The notes beneath the pieces are model-generated. The model saw nothing but the letters and a program-made list of their open reading frames with translations, had not been told where the DNA came from and did not search any database. The translations under genes were made by a program, and so were the position numbers. Of a stretch of DNA of 64,000 nucleotides, positions 4,369 through 60,970 are shown piece by piece. Origin of the DNA: Lacrimispora celerecrescens. Lineage in GTDB: Bacteria > Bacillota > Clostridia > Lachnospirales > Lachnospiraceae. Every line of letters begins with the position of its first letter. Position 1 is the first letter of the stretch. The stretch is from positions 248,001 to 312,000 of the forward strand of contig NZ_JPME01000018.1 in assembly GCF_000732605.1 (NCBI RefSeq), given 5' to 3'.

Positions 4369-6132
4369 ATGAGCCAGCCAAAACAGATCGAAAAAGTTAC
4401 TAAGCCCGACCACATCCTGTCCTATTTTAAACTGGAGCTATGGCCGCTATTATTAGTCACGGTATCAGGTATCTTTTATAACGTTGGTATGATTGCCGGA
4501 CCCTATTTTGAAGGGAGGCTGGCACAATGCCTGTTCGATATCATGAATGGGTATCAGACCTTTTCTGCCATGATATCGCTTGCAGTCACTTACCTGGCCG
4601 TTATTCTCGCCGTTCAGCTGATGCGCTGCATCAAACGGTTTTATGTACGGCGGTTCGCCAATGATACAAGCCGCAACATGCGGCATATGCTGTATAACAG
4701 TTTGGTAAATATGAGCCAGGAGGAACTGAAGCAGGAAAGCCTTGGTGCTATCATGACCAAAGCAGTGACCGATGTGGACGCATGCGTGGAGGGAATGCGG
4801 AAATTTACCACGGAAATATTTGATACCGGCGTGGTACTGGCATCTTATCTTGCCATGCTTTTTGTTTATGACTGGCGGCTGGCTTTGCTTTCCGGTATCT
4901 TTACACCCATTGCCTATTTCATTGCAGGGCAGCTGAAAATTCGCATCACACAGTATAATATGGAATATAAGAAAAGTGCAGGCCGGTTAAACAGTTCCAC
5001 CATGGACAGAATTTCTAATTCCATTACCTACCGTGTGTATGGCTGTGAGCCAAACCGTGACAGTGCTTACGAAACTCATCTTGCGGATTATGAGAAACGT
5101 GCAGTTTCAGCAAACCTATGGGGAAGTGCCATGCAGCCGATTTACAACATTATCTCCATGTGTGGCGCAGTTTTGATTATTTATTCAGGTTCTAAAAACG
5201 TGCTTGGAACCGGTTGGGCCAACTGGAACATCGCGGCGTTTACTACTTTTCTTTCCTGTTTTACAAAAATGGCCCTCAAATCCTCCAAAGCAGCTAATCT
5301 GTTCAATGCCGTGCAAAAGGCACAAGTTTCATGGGTAAGAATTAAACCGCTGATGAAAGAATATGTGGAACAGAATACGGATTCCGCCATCGACTTTTCA
5401 AAACCTGGGGGACTCACGGTATCTGGCTTATCCCTGGGTTGGCCGGGTGGCCCTAAAATCCTCAAAGGCCTTTCCTTTTCTGCCGGCCCCGGGCAAATCC
5501 TTGGTGTGTCAGGGCCTGTGGCAAGCGGTAAATCTGCACTGGGCAAAGCCTTGATTGGAGAAGTTCCCTATGAAGGCAGCATCCGTGTGGGAGAACGGGA
5601 ACTCTCCACTCTGAGCGGCTACGAACGCAGCAGACTGATTTCCTACATGGGGCATCAGCCGGACCTGGTAAGTGACAGTATTGAGGAGAACATCCGTCTT
5701 GGAGAACATGGGAGCATTGCCCCTTATCTGCAGGCAGTATGTTTCGGGAAAGAGGTGTCACAAATGCCCCAGGGAGCAGCTACTTCAGTAGGCAGCGGGG
5801 GAATAAAGCTTTCAGGCGGTCAGCAGGCACGAACCGCTCTGGCCCGCACACTTTATAATGCACAGCACATTTTAATTTTGGATGATCCCTTTTCCGCGGT
5901 TGACCGCGGCACGGAGCAGAAAATCTTTGAAAATCTGCGTACATTGGCTGCGGATAAAATCGTGATACTCATTTCCCATAGGCTATATCTGTTTCCCACC
6001 TTGGATAAGGTGCTGTTTTTAGACGGCGGCAGAGGAGTTTTTTCTACCCATGACGATTTGATGGAGAAAAATCCCACTTATGCAGAATTGTATCATGCAC
6101 AGATGGAGGGGGAGATGCAAAATGAAGAATAA
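4369..6132 (+). CDS. ABC exporter half-transporter, first subunit
   Basis: A 587-residue fused membrane/ATPase half-transporter. Residues about 30-330 hold the six-helix type IV ABC exporter domain. The nucleotide-binding domain has Walker A GPVASGKS near 382, signature LSGGQQ near 481, Walker B LILDDP near 502 and H-loop ISHR near 534. The catalytic glutamate after Walker B is replaced by Asp, which is typical of the degenerate-site subunit of heterodimeric exporters. The next gene overlaps it by 11 bases and supplies the other subunit. Probable drug or peptide export; substrate unknown. Confidence 0.9.
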   Translation: MSQPKQIEKVTKPDHILSYFKLELWPLLLVTVSGIFYNVGMIAGPYFEGRLAQCLFDIMNGYQTFSAMISLAVTYLAVILAVQLMRCIKRFYVRRFANDTSRNMRHMLYNSLVNMSQEELKQESLGAIMTKAVTDVDACVEGMRKFTTEIFDTGVVLASYLAMLFVYDWRLALLSGIFTPIAYFIAGQLKIRITQYNMEYKKSAGRLNSSTMDRISNSITYRVYGCEPNRDSAYETHLADYEKRAVSANLWGSAMQPIYNIISMCGAVLIIYSGSKNVLGTGWANWNIAAFTTFLSCFTKMALKSSKAANLFNAVQKAQVSWVRIKPLMKEYVEQNTDSAIDFSKPGGLTVSGLSLGWPGGPKILKGLSFSAGPGQILGVSGPVASGKSALGKALIGEVPYEGSIRVGERELSTLSGYERSRLISYMGHQPDLVSDSIEENIRLGEHGSIAPYLQAVCFGKEVSQMPQGAATSVGSGGIKLSGGQQARTALARTLYNAQHILILDDPFSAVDRGTEQKIFENLRTLAADKIVILISHRLYLFPTLDKVLFLDGGRGVFSTHDDLMEKNPTYAELYHAQMEGEMQNEE

Positions 6133-7783
6133 GAACAGTCTTGGCTCTGTGCTGAGAAAAATCATCTCCTCTTCCAAATGGATGACCCTTACGACGGTGA
6201 TCATCATCGCAGGAGCGATTGCAACAGCCCTTCTCCCACCGTTGGTTTTGGAACGCATCGTCAATCGGCTGACTGCCCATCAGCCGATCCCACTCTATCT
6301 CGCACTGATCTATTTTGGACTGCTGGCGCTTTCGGGTTTATTGGAGTCTGGTCAGAACGTGATGATCACCGTGTTTGGTCAAAAGGTCACCCACGGCCTT
6401 CGAAGTGAAATGTGTGCCAAGCTCCAGCGTCTGCCTGCCGCCTATTTTGCACGGCACGAGGCAGGCAAAACTACTTCTCGTTTTGTAAATGATGTGGATG
6501 TGGTAGATTCGCTGTTCACCAATGGCATTATCAGTATGTTTGCCGATGCCTGCAAGGTACTTAGTATCCTGGCAGTCATCTTTTATAAAAGCTTGGGGCT
6601 TGGCATTCTGATGCTGTGGGTCACACCGCTGTTGTTTGTCATGACGCGCCTGTTCCAGAAGCGGATACTGAAGGCACAGCTTGCAAACCGCGCAGCAGTG
6701 GGTAATGTCAATAATCATGTGCCTGAGACAATACGGACGATCCGCATGATCCGCACCCTGTTCCGGCAGAAATACATGGAGCAGAAATATGATGATTACA
6801 TTGAAGAAAGCTACCACGCAACAGATAAGTCAAACCTTTATGATTCCATTTATTCTCCCATTGTTATCTTCATCAGCTCTTGCGTAATTGCGGTGATGAT
6901 GATATGCGCCGCTCTGGGCGGACAGGTGCAGCAGTTCTTTGGTGTCACCGTCGGTACTGCAGTAGCCATCATCGCTTATGTGAATAAGGTGTTTGACCCT
7001 CTGGAAAGTATTGGTATGGAGATTCAAAACATCCAATCCGCTGTTGCAGGAGTAAAGAGAATCAACGAATTCTTAAATGAGCCGGAACGGGAAAAAACAG
7101 ACGAATCGGTTACCGGTAAGGGACCAATTCCAAACACAAAACCCTGTATCTGCTTTGATCATGTAAGCTTTTGCTATGATAAGGAAAATACCGTGTTAAA
7201 CGACCTTTGCTTTAAGGTAGAAAGCGACGAAGCGGTCACCCTTGTGGGCAGAACGGGCGCGGGAAAAAGCACGATCTTCCGTTTGCTGCTGGGTCTGTAT
7301 TGTCCTAATGAAGGGCGAGTGCTTGTAGACGGTGTGGAGGCCTCTAAAATCCCAGATACCAGGAAGAGAAAGCTGTTCGGCTATGTGGAACAGTCATTCC
7401 ATTCCGTATCAGGCACGATGGCAGAACAGATTTCTTTGTTTGATCCTGCCATCAGCCAAAAACAGGTGGAGGATGCTGCAAGACTGGTTGGACTTCACGA
7501 AAGCATTTTGGCACTCCCGGAAGGTTATAATACCCCTGTGGAAAAAGCCATCTTTTCGCAGGGGCAGTTTCAACTGCTTTCCATTGCCCGGGCGGTAGCC
7601 GCCTCTCCAGAAATTCTGCTGTTGGATGAAATTACGGCAAGCCTTGACAGCGATACGGAACGCAGAATATTGGACGCTTTAGAGCGTGCCTGCGAAGGCA
7701 GAACAGTACTTTCCATATCCCACCGCCTGCACGTAAATACCCGGAATTATCGAATAATAGAAATAGGTAGTAAATGCTTGTAA
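6122..7783 (+). CDS. ABC exporter half-transporter, second subunit
   Basis: A 553-residue fused membrane/ATPase subunit. I start it at ATG 6122, preceded by GGAGGGGGAG, rather than the longer frame from 6080; it overlaps the previous gene by 11 bases, implying translational coupling. Walker A GRTGAGKST is near residue 376. Walker B LLLDEI keeps the catalytic Glu, but the signature is FSQGQ instead of LSGGQ. Together with the Asp-for-Glu change in the partner this gives one canonical and one degenerate ATP site, as in TM287/288-type heterodimers. Substrate unknown; neighbours are other export/resistance genes. Confidence 0.9.
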   Translation: MKNKNSLGSVLRKIISSSKWMTLTTVIIIAGAIATALLPPLVLERIVNRLTAHQPIPLYLALIYFGLLALSGLLESGQNVMITVFGQKVTHGLRSEMCAKLQRLPAAYFARHEAGKTTSRFVNDVDVVDSLFTNGIISMFADACKVLSILAVIFYKSLGLGILMLWVTPLLFVMTRLFQKRILKAQLANRAAVGNVNNHVPETIRTIRMIRTLFRQKYMEQKYDDYIEESYHATDKSNLYDSIYSPIVIFISSCVIAVMMICAALGGQVQQFFGVTVGTAVAIIAYVNKVFDPLESIGMEIQNIQSAVAGVKRINEFLNEPEREKTDESVTGKGPIPNTKPCICFDHVSFCYDKENTVLNDLCFKVESDEAVTLVGRTGAGKSTIFRLLLGLYCPNEGRVLVDGVEASKIPDTRKRKLFGYVEQSFHSVSGTMAEQISLFDPAISQKQVEDAARLVGLHESILALPEGYNTPVEKAIFSQGQFQLLSIARAVAASPEILLLDEITASLDSDTERRILDALERACEGRTVLSISHRLHVNTRNYRIIEIGSKCL

Positions 7784-7858
7784 TTTTAATGATACCTGCA
7801 ATATGATGATTCGCTTATCATTTTAGGATTCCGTATAGTTTTCTGGCCTCAGATATGG

Positions 7859-7864
7859 TAAAAT
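7859..7864 (+). promoter_or_regulatory. Extended -10 box upstream of the MFS leader
   Basis: TGG followed by TAAAAT is an extended -10 motif; the -35 (about 7836-7841) is poor. Transcription from about 7871 would include the leader peptide and hairpins before the MFS gene. Confidence 0.45.
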
Positions 7865-7929
7865 AAATGAAATTACTTTTAAGTGATTTTGATTAGAAAC
7901 GAAAACCGTAAATATAAAGGAGAATAAAA

Positions 7930-7968
7930 ATGCTGCTCTGTATTGGCACCGCTCCGTGCAAAGTCTGA
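7930..7968 (+). CDS. Leader peptide of the MFS exporter gene (12 aa)
   Basis: ATG at 7930 follows AAAGGAG (7916-7922) with a 7-base gap, an excellent ribosome site for so short a frame. The product reads MLLCIGTAPCKV and stops at TGA 7966-7968. Its last codons form the 5' arm of two alternative hairpins, and it precedes an exporter gene. This is the arrangement of leader peptides that control resistance genes by ribosome stalling. The inducer is unknown. Confidence 0.7.
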   Translation: MLLCIGTAPCKV

Positions 7969-8063
7969 AACGGACGAAACTGCACGGAGTAGATTGAATT
8001 CGTCCGTTGGACTTTGCACTTTCAATAAATCATAAAGATTTTATTTGAAAAAGGAGCAAAGTC
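7952..8063 (+). promoter_or_regulatory. Attenuator: three competing RNA pairings before the MFS start
   Basis: Pairing 1: CTCCGTGCA (7952-7960) with TGCACGGAG (7981-7989). Pairing 2: 7956-7965 plus 7969-7978 with 7999-8008 plus 8010-8019, about 20 bp with a small internal loop. Pairing 3: GACTTTGC (8010-8017) with GCAAAGTC (8056-8063), which lies between the AAGGAG ribosome site (8051-8056) and the ATG at 8064. Pairings 1 and 2 exclude each other, as do 2 and 3. No T-run follows pairing 2, so translational control is more likely than termination. Confidence 0.7.
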
Positions 8064-9368
8064 ATGTTAAAAAATTTAAAAACAAACATCGAGGAACTTC
8101 GTAATTTCCTGATTTTATGGATCACACAGTCATTTTCGGCCTTGGGCAGTGCAATGACCAACTTCGCGCTGGTGATCTGGTCTTATCAACAGCAGGGGTC
8201 GGCTCTCACCACCTCGTTATTGGCCATCTGTTCCTATGCACCCTATGTCCTTTTAAGCATTTTTGCAGGTGCACTGAGTGACCGGTGGAACAAAAAGGCT
8301 ACGATGCTGCTCAGTGACAGCTTTGCGGCATTGTGTACTGTTTCGGTGCTTATACTGATGACAACTGGTAAACTCCAGATTTGGCATCTGTATTTAATCA
8401 ACACCTTGAATGGATTGATGAACACGGTACAGCAGCCTGCATCGGATGTAGCCATCAGCCTGTTGGCCCCGCAAAAGCATTACCAGAAGGTAAGCGGGAT
8501 GCGTTCCTTATCCAATTCGTTGGTTACCGTACTGACGCCTATGCTGGCTTCCGCCCTGCTTTCTTTTGGAAGCATCCGTCTTGTCATCCTGTTCGATTTA
8601 ATTACATTTTCCATAGCGTTCCTATCGCTGTTATGCTTTGTCAAAATCCCGCAGGCCACAGAAGGCCGGGGCCCGGAGAGGGAAACGGTATTGCAGTCTG
8701 CCAAAAGCGGCTTGCGGTATCTTAAAGATAACCGGGGAATTCTGGATCTGATTCTGTTTTTGGCTGTTATCAATTTTACTGCTTCTATCTTCAATGCCGC
8801 CCTGCCCGCTATGGTACTGTCACGTGCCGGTGGCGGAGAACTGGCCCTTGGAATGATCAACACTGTTACAGGAATTGCAACAATGGTTGGAAGCATTTTG
8901 GTTTCTATGCTGCCTCCGCCAAAAAGCCGGGTTCGAGTGATTTGTAATTGCCTGCTTTTTTCCATGAGTACTGAGAACTTTATCCTTGCTTTTGGCAGGA
9001 GTACTCCTGTATGGTGTTTTGGCGCAGTCCTTGGCTGGATCTTTATTCCTGTTATGAACGCCAACATGGATGTTCTTTTCCGAACAATGATCCCTATTGA
9101 AATGCAGGGCCGCGTCTATTCAGCAAGGAATACCTTACAGTTTTTCACCATTCCCCTGGGATATCTGTGCGGCGGCATTTTGGTAGACCGGGTGTTTGAA
9201 CCATTTATGGCAGGACAGCCGGCAGGCAGTCTGTGGACCCCACTGTTTGGAACAGGAAAAGGCTCCGGTGCGGCGATGTTATTTTTTGTGATCGGATTTT
9301 TAGGTGCCTTATCATGTCTGCCATTTCGGGCGGACAGAAATATTTGGAAACTGGAGGAAACGTTGTAA
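8064..9368 (+). CDS. MFS efflux protein (macrolide-efflux-like)
   Basis: A 434-residue integral membrane protein with about 12 hydrophobic helices. The N-terminus (NFLILWITQSFSALGSAMTNFAL) and the GALSDRWNKK loop between helices 2 and 3 match the drug:H+ antiporter branch that includes Mef-type macrolide exporters. The start at 8064 follows AAGGAG and is controlled by the attenuator described upstream. The gene is followed within 27 bases by an ArsC-type gene on the same strand. Drug export is inferred from family and leader; the drug is not. Confidence 0.85.
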   Translation: MLKNLKTNIEELRNFLILWITQSFSALGSAMTNFALVIWSYQQQGSALTTSLLAICSYAPYVLLSIFAGALSDRWNKKATMLLSDSFAALCTVSVLILMTTGKLQIWHLYLINTLNGLMNTVQQPASDVAISLLAPQKHYQKVSGMRSLSNSLVTVLTPMLASALLSFGSIRLVILFDLITFSIAFLSLLCFVKIPQATEGRGPERETVLQSAKSGLRYLKDNRGILDLILFLAVINFTASIFNAALPAMVLSRAGGGELALGMINTVTGIATMVGSILVSMLPPPKSRVRVICNCLLFSMSTENFILAFGRSTPVWCFGAVLGWIFIPVMNANMDVLFRTMIPIEMQGRVYSARNTLQFFTIPLGYLCGGILVDRVFEPFMAGQPAGSLWTPLFGTGKGSGAAMLFFVIGFLGALSCLPFRADRNIWKLEETL

Positions 9369-9395: not shown

Positions 9396-9803
9396 ATGAA
9401 TAAACCCAAAGTAGCGTTTGTATGCGTCCATAACTCTTGCCGCAGCCAGATAGCCGAAGCTCTTGGCAAACACCTTGCCTCAGATACTTATGAAAGCTAT
9501 TCTGCCGGGACAGAGGCCAAACCGCAAATCAACCAGGACGCAGTACAGCTTATGAATCGACTTTATGGAATTGATATGGAGCAATCCCAGCATAGCAAGC
9601 TCCTATCTGAAATTCCTCCGGTAGATATTGTTATTACAATGGGCTGTAATGTAAAGTGCCCGTTTCTGCCCTGTAAATACCGGGAAGATTGGGGACTTAA
9701 CGATCCCAGCGGCATGGATGATACCGCATTTTTAGAAACAATAACCCTTATCCGGGATAAAATTTTAAACCTTAGAGACCGTATCCAAAACGGAACTTTA
9801 TAA
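9396..9803 (+). CDS. arsC: Arsenate reductase, LMW-phosphatase (thioredoxin) type
   Basis: A 135-residue cytosolic protein. The phosphatase-like loop C10-VHNS-C15-R16 and the Asp-Pro at 103-104 match thioredoxin-linked ArsC. The resolving cysteines fall in MGCNVKCPFLPCKYREDWG (Cys84, Cys88, Cys93). It would reduce arsenate to arsenite, which then needs an exporter; no arsB, acr3 or arsR is visible here. It follows the MFS gene by 27 bases with a GGGGG ribosome site, so the two are probably co-transcribed. A general low-molecular-weight phosphatase is the alternative. Confidence 0.85.
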   Translation: MNKPKVAFVCVHNSCRSQIAEALGKHLASDTYESYSAGTEAKPQINQDAVQLMNRLYGIDMEQSQHSKLLSEIPPVDIVITMGCNVKCPFLPCKYREDWGLNDPSGMDDTAFLETITLIRDKILNLRDRIQNGTL

Positions 9804-60764: not shown

Positions 60765-60794
60765 TAAAGTTTAGAATCTGGTAATCTCATCCTT

Positions 60795-60970
60795 CTTTAA
60801 GTAGCTCCCCATCCAAAAGGATGACAGTCATATGGCTCTTAACCATATGCCCAGAACAAGCATGCTCAGGCCATACCGTTCTTCGGCGTCTCTTCCTTCC
60901 CCCTGCCCTCATCTGTACCTGATACATCGGACAGGGTACTTATAAGCAACGCAACCTCTACTCTAATATG
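60795..60970 (-). promoter_or_regulatory. Lysine riboswitch (L-box) ahead of dapA-dapB
   Basis: On the minus strand, conserved L-box words occur in order: AGAGGTTGCG, ATAAGTAC, GGGGGAAGG, ACGCCGAAG, CTGGGC, ACTGTCATCC and GGGAGCTACTT-like (GGGGAGCTAC). A terminator follows. When lysine binds, the terminator should form and dapA-dapB should be off. Confidence 0.92.

Follow-up and report, generated by a model that had tools for sequence, protein, structure and literature searches.

A putative translational attenuator, opened by ribosome stalling, ahead of an MFS transporter gene in Lacrimispora celerecrescens

Upstream of an MFS transporter gene of Lacrimispora celerecrescens, within the 64,000-nucleotide stretch of DNA that we analysed (the window), a short leader reading frame and a set of competing RNA arms probably form a translational attenuator that is switched on when a ribosome stalls at the leader. 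The element is erm-like in its logic and is not an erm member, a candidate that we rejected because the downstream gene encodes an MFS_1 protein, not an Erm methyltransferase, and because the peptide differs. A sequence-only reading of the locus had proposed ribosome-stalling control of the erm kind and had called the direction of control not obvious. The conserved leader frame, paired changes in the arms and the position-dependent opening in our folding model support stalling control, and the calculation indicates that a stall would turn the gene on.

Leader frame and alternative pairings in the window

The leader MLLCIGTAPCKV comprises 12 codons on the plus strand (7930..7968), from an ATG at 7930 to a TGA at 7966-7968, and follows an AAGGAG ribosome site that was read in the sequence at 7917..7922 and is kept as a Shine-Dalgarno (SD)-like site in relatives. 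The sequence-only reading had described a 12-codon frame with a good ribosome site overlapping alternative RNA arms, and we found the frame and each proposed pairing exactly where it had placed them. Arm S1 (7952..7966) pairs through 7952-7960 with S2b (7981..7989) as CTCCGTGCA/TGCACGGAG; S2a (7969..7978) pairs with the 7999-8008 part of S3 (7999..8019) as AACGGACGAA/TTCGTCCGTT; and S3 pairs through 8010-8017 with S4 (8056..8063) as GACTTTGC/GCAAAGTC, all on the plus strand. S4 repeats 7958-7965 and lies between the exporter ribosome site (AAGGAG at 8051..8056, read in the sequence) and the ATG. Segment 1 can also join segment 3, as had been proposed, through 7956-7965 and 8010-8019, which with the inner arm makes 20 bp.

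Folding of 7930-8070 alone gave a minimum free energy (MFE) of -49.1 kcal/mol (z -5.9), and 1 of 200 dinucleotide shuffles folded as well. The MFE structure contains an AU-rich hairpin just 5' of the exporter ribosome site (about 8020..8050), with similar pairing in relatives by eye, and a pairing beyond those of the earlier reading, between GCTCC at 7951-7955 in the S1 region and GGAGC at 8053-8057 in the exporter ribosome site. Counted as helices alone, 1:2 plus 3:4 come to -23.4 kcal/mol and 1:3 plus 2:3 to -28.9 kcal/mol, or to -34.0 kcal/mol with the arm-1:SD pairing added. By computation, then, the locus has mutually exclusive pairings that would hide or free the start site, and paired changes accompany them in relatives.

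The transporter gene (8064..9368, plus strand) encodes 434 amino acids with an MFS_1 profile match of 111.2 bits against a cut-off of 33.4. Its best NCBIfam matches, none of which reaches the respective cut-off, are to TIGR00900 (168 bits against 319.6) and to the Mef group; membership in mef(A)/mef(E) efflux was rejected on these scores (Mef(C), 116.3 against 870 bits; Mef(A), 95.1 against 675), and a search of the PDB gave no relative at E 0.001. Two mutually overlapping ABC half-transporter genes lie directly 5' of the leader (4369-7783), and just 3' of the MFS gene (9396-9803) a small LMWPc-family protein is encoded, whose arsenate-reductase-like matches are below cut-off. A sigma-70 scan reported 3 sites where 1.3 were expected, and the only plus-strand one near the leader start was at 7778-7807; an extended -10-like string 5' of the leader, TGGTAAAAT at 7856-7864, is absent from that scan and looks similar in close relatives by eye. 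Scanning the whole window with Rfam 15 returned no gathering-score match at the leader and, elsewhere, only a lysine riboswitch (60794-60968, minus strand, 114.2 bits). A literature search, with limited coverage of subscription papers, yielded no paper that we recognised as describing the element.

Distribution and conservation of the element

Within the genus, 18 of 25 genomes hold 22 transporter homologs at E <= 1e-60, and the element stands upstream of all 22. A covariance model (R1), built from 20 genus elements and encoding S1:S3 and S2:S3 only, was run on overlapping samples of the order and of the class. It matched 20 of 392 genomes, in 10 of 173 genera, in the first and 17 of 391 genomes, in 14 of 222 genera, in the second, with 3 genomes matched in both; these matches lie mostly ahead of MFS genes. 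A sequence pattern matched at least 118 loci in named genomes, including Hungatella hathewayi, Emergencia timonensis, Cuneatibacter and Ruminococcus flavefaciens and, further, Paenibacillus, Breznakia, a Treponema MAG and Breznakiella; since S1, S2b and a portion of S3 were prescribed by the pattern, agreement of its loci in these letters is no evidence. It also matched 3 viral contigs, of which one without an assignable gene (L184) may be a chance match. When compared with plasmids and phages, a 201-base region had no match at E 1e-5, and the element of a Cfr locus (L061) had one partial plasmid match (33% of the query, 78.2% identity, Enterococcus faecalis).

The exact peptide proved rare in relatives, while the leader frame and the arms, with paired changes, are kept. 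The peptide pattern CIGTAPCK matched its own genome alone among 397 genomes of the family, and the RNA serves better as a probe. Class A leaders (MLLCIGTAPCKV, MKLCIGMAPCKV, MRLCIGSAPCKV and others) precede 11 of the 22 genus homologs, the window's own included; class B leaders are longer, end approximately in LCTRSD..TRLVQ and precede the 11 more distant homologs. The sequence of S1 is retained although the two classes read it in different frames.

Of 102 distinct class A MFS loci, 75 have an ATG exactly 22 nt 5' of S1 and 11 have one 3 nt later, at 19 nt. Counts elsewhere were 0 to 6 at each offset from -31 to -23, 19 at offset -14, which is another frame, and 10 at offset -13, which is codon 4. 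In the subset of 84 class A MFS loci with ATG, GTG or TTG at -22, an SD-like site precedes the leader in 79, the stop falls at the identical codon in 71, and residue 3 is Leu in 67, spelled with six different Leu codons; mean entropy over leader codons 2-6 rises from 1.02 bits at the first codon position to 1.33 at the second and 1.51 at the third. Kept in place, length and ribosome site, the leader frame is a putative translated gene, and by these signs it matches the short translated leader, with its own ribosome site, of a stalling-controlled attenuator. Residue 4 is variable: of 79 MFS loci among the listed matches of a second, pattern-derived set, 41 have Cys, 24 Ala and 10 Met. The APCK part of the leader was set by the search pattern there, and its conservation in that set is no evidence.

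Pairing of the arms was assessed in 50 elements, a set from which L003, L021, L024-L029 and L045-L048 had been removed because they repeat other loci or are identical to them or almost so, and the MAFFT alignment misplaced the class A CGTCC, so helices were counted by script. All 8 tested S1:S2b pairs form in 49 of the 50 homologs, 30 of which came from model R1, which lacks the S1:S2b helix. For S1:S3 and S3:S4 the best-pairing registers were used by choice; on that basis, all 8 S3:S4 pairs form in 22 of 26 class A homologs, and position S1+4 is G or A with matching partners in both S2b and S3 in 26 of 26. Over 113 MFS loci, AT, GC and GT are the only combinations at the S1+4:S2b pair, with 8 changes on a FastTree tree, and CG and TA the only ones at the S1+3 pair, with 4 changes; the well-supported independent pairs on the tree, 5 for S1+4 and 3 for S1+3, are too few for a sign test. 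Among the listed matches of the second set, an A at S1+4 has T as its S2b partner in 67 of 67 MFS loci, though the pattern permitted C, and in 30 of these loci the outer S1:S3 pair does not form; a G at S1+4, in 12 MFS loci, is partnered by C in 7 and by T in 5. The outcome that the sequence-only reading had named as speaking against it, conservation of neither peptide nor pairing in relatives, did not occur.

Computed opening of the start site and ribosome position

From each homolog we removed all RNA 5' of an assumed ribosome edge, folded what remained and took as the cost the energy needed to open the start site, SD through AUG. The calculation considered only the RNA 3' of the ribosome and ran without kinetics. 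With RNA starting 30 nt before S1, the mean cost was 9.6 kcal/mol in class A and 7.3 kcal/mol in class B. In 23 of the 26 homologs of class A and 18 of the 24 of class B, the cost then reached a sharp minimum with S1+3 or +6 as the first free base; further 3' it was high again, at about 10-12 kcal/mol. A dip of more than 2 kcal/mol was computed for 22 class A and 18 class B homologs, 40 of the 50 altogether; the other 10 lacked it, and among 200 shuffles 3 (1.5%) had one. In the window, the cost was 7.7 kcal/mol at S1-3, 2.9 at S1+1 to +4 and 7.7 at S1+9, and it rose to 12.6 kcal/mol at about S1+14 to +15, where the whole of S1 is masked and the site is closed. The site was likewise closed with the leader finished (edge S1+27, 9.0 kcal/mol) and with a ribosome held at the start codon (edge S1-6, 7.6 kcal/mol), so neither normal translation nor pure start-codon arrest would switch the gene on.

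The second folding set took 110 of the 121 listed pattern loci, leaving out L156 and the 10 without an assigned gene. Among these listed matches, a dip of more than 2 kcal/mol was computed for 66 of 79 MFS loci, one CAT locus and one Cfr locus, and for 13 of 29 loci with a CD3324-like gene, the other 16 showing none. Either the model is weak at the CD3324 loci or the wrong start site was chosen there.

By toeprint convention, the first free base lies 16 nt after the first P-site base, and the open band of the window (S1+0 to +6) would place Leu3, Cys4 or Ile5 in the P-site. Class B leaders have their open band at the codons 12-15 nt before S1, where the -12 codon is Leu or Met in 21 of 24 leaders and is followed by Ser in 21 of 24. 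The strongest point in favour of the model, in our view, is that the band coincides with conserved leader codons in class A and class B alike, despite their different frames relative to the RNA.

Together, these calculations suggest a mechanism with two closed states and one open state. As long as the leader is free of ribosomes, S1 would pair through its 5' part with S2b or with the transporter ribosome site, and the start site would be closed. When the leader is read through, a ribosome at the UGA would cover S1 and the beginning of S2, S3 and S4 would pair, and the site would again be closed. A ribosome stalled early, with Leu3, Cys4 or Ile5 in the P-site, would cover S1 at its 5' edge only; the 3' part of S1 and S2a could then jointly pair with S3, which would leave S4 and the ribosome site free and allow the transporter to be made.

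Linked genes, rival explanations and related systems

BLASTP against reference proteins assigned genes at the 121 pattern loci (the at least 118 in named genomes and the 3 viral ones) as 80 MFS, 29 CD3324-like, 1 CatA-like and 1 Cfr, with 10 left without assignment. The L061 gene is Cfr (NF011024, 642.4 bits, cut-off 468) and the L145 gene CD3324 (NF040785, 107.5 bits, cut-off 65), while the L059 gene matches CAT (PF00302) and misses the NCBIfam CatA cut-off (211.9 against 270). L044 holds a piece of a SpoU methylase with an interrupted reading frame, and the MFS-like gene behind the element in L038 is similarly interrupted in the assembly. At L113, one of the loci without a BLASTP assignment, an MFS gene was seen by eye further 3', behind more than 200 extra bases between S3 and its ribosome site, with the S4-like GGAGCAAAG still there by eye. 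A protein starting approximately ADITP..GF..SKG/SRG is encoded directly after the element in L160 and after the CD3324 gene in L066 and L084.

The link to Cfr rests on two distinct loci, L061 and L062, because a further one, L171, apparently repeats the L062 contig, with which it agrees in length and protein. The leaders of both Cfr genes, with RLHAKSD and RLHAKPD, are of the CD3324 type, and the ribosome-site stretch, AGGAGGAAGCC, is similar too; to judge from the letters, the leader looks as if it had moved between the CD3324 and Cfr gene types. A gene for a Vat-like acetyltransferase lies within 4 kb at 13 of 29 CD3324 loci against 0 of 79 MFS loci (among the listed matches); in two of the 13 the alignment covers no more than about 50 residues, and the L145 copy reaches 243 bits with the Vat model, whose cut-off is 300. 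Cfr, CatA-like and Vat-like proteins confer protection from drugs that act at the peptidyl-transferase centre, and the linked genes therefore suggest such drugs as candidate inducers. We infer that ribosomes would stall at the leader codons named above, that a peptidyl-transferase-centre drug would be the cause and that the MFS protein would export that drug.

Other explanations fit parts of these data. Arms 1:2, 2:3 and 3:4 are present as in erm leaders and would suit a plain erm-type switch, in which masking of arm 1 merely permits 2:3, and S1:S3 and the exact stop are irrelevant. We consider this unlikely, since the computed start site is closed when S1 is fully masked, and 2:3 (7999-8008) does not overlap 3:4 (8010-8017) and thus cannot by itself free S4. 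The retention of S1 under different overlying leader frames in classes A and B would be expected of a structured RNA that binds a ligand or protein directly, with the ORF incidental; this is quite improbable given that leader start, SD and stop are conserved in place, that Leu3 varies synonymously and that no Rfam riboswitch matches at the leader.

Slightly less probable again is an attenuator responding to amino-acid shortage, for example of cysteine, rather than to a drug. The leader has Cys4 and Cys10, and Cys occurs in many relatives, but the Cys4 position is Ala or Met in some of the MFS loci counted above, class B differs there, and the linked genes are Cfr, CatA-like and Vat-like, not amino-acid genes. 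Premature transcription termination seems to us the most far-fetched of the four: Clostridioides difficile CplR does join transcription and translation attenuation (accessible part of PMC10201436), but a scan of 7740-8110 here found no terminator-like site.

The attenuator that we favour, opened by a stalled ribosome, shares with erm- and cat-type translational attenuators a short leader ORF, alternative arm pairings and a start site freed by the stalled ribosome, which is here a computed result. It differs in controlling an MFS transporter, in its peptide and in its antisequester, which would combine the 3' portion of the leader arm with the arm that follows, so that opening would need a narrow band of stop positions. 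The mef(E)/mel attenuator likewise precedes a Mef-type MFS gene and acts, in the accessible part of PMC4335068, by transcription attenuation, whereas the scan of the present locus showed no terminator, and its MFS protein does not reach the Mef cut-offs. In the accessible part of PMC10201436, the clostridial gene cplR of C. difficile is induced by the ribosome-targeting drugs retapamulin and lincomycin via a uORF; it is likewise a clostridial case of translational attenuation, but it is an ABC-F gene with a 3-codon uORF, MR[I/M], and a terminator in addition.

By eye, at two loci, the uup RNA (RF03060) has a similar arm 1 (CTCTGTACAA), an S1:S2 plus S2:S3 layout and a leader ORF, but its gene is another one and its leader reads arm 1 in a third frame. 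Membership in the same family was not established, as the window element scores 17.6 bits against a gathering score of 36.8, and R1 finds the uup RNA at E 0.07-0.18 only, mainly on the other strand. The genome itself carries a uup RNA (L065, G000:C39:39404-39451, 64.1 bits) 5' of an ATP-binding-cassette gene (ABC-F by eye), and a leader ORF and a downstream T-rich hairpin were seen by eye at L065 and L064.

A broader reading, which we put forward tentatively and with somewhat less than even confidence, is that one RNA module responding to the position of a stalled ribosome may have been reused under different leader peptides in two frames (a third if the uup RNA is kin) and shuffled between MFS, Cfr, CatA-like and CD3324/Vat genes. 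Many Clostridia and some Paenibacillus would then share a sensor of peptidyl-transferase antibiotics whose conserved core is the RNA geometry and not the peptide. If true, the attenuator would open for a narrow band of ribosome positions and stay closed both without a ribosome and after readthrough, and the predicted stall codons would make the inducer findable with a single reporter screen and a set of toeprints. An inducible-resistance switch absent from Rfam would be spread over many Clostridia, and its motif would serve to find genes that drugs induce, among them little-characterised ones like those of the CD3324 family.
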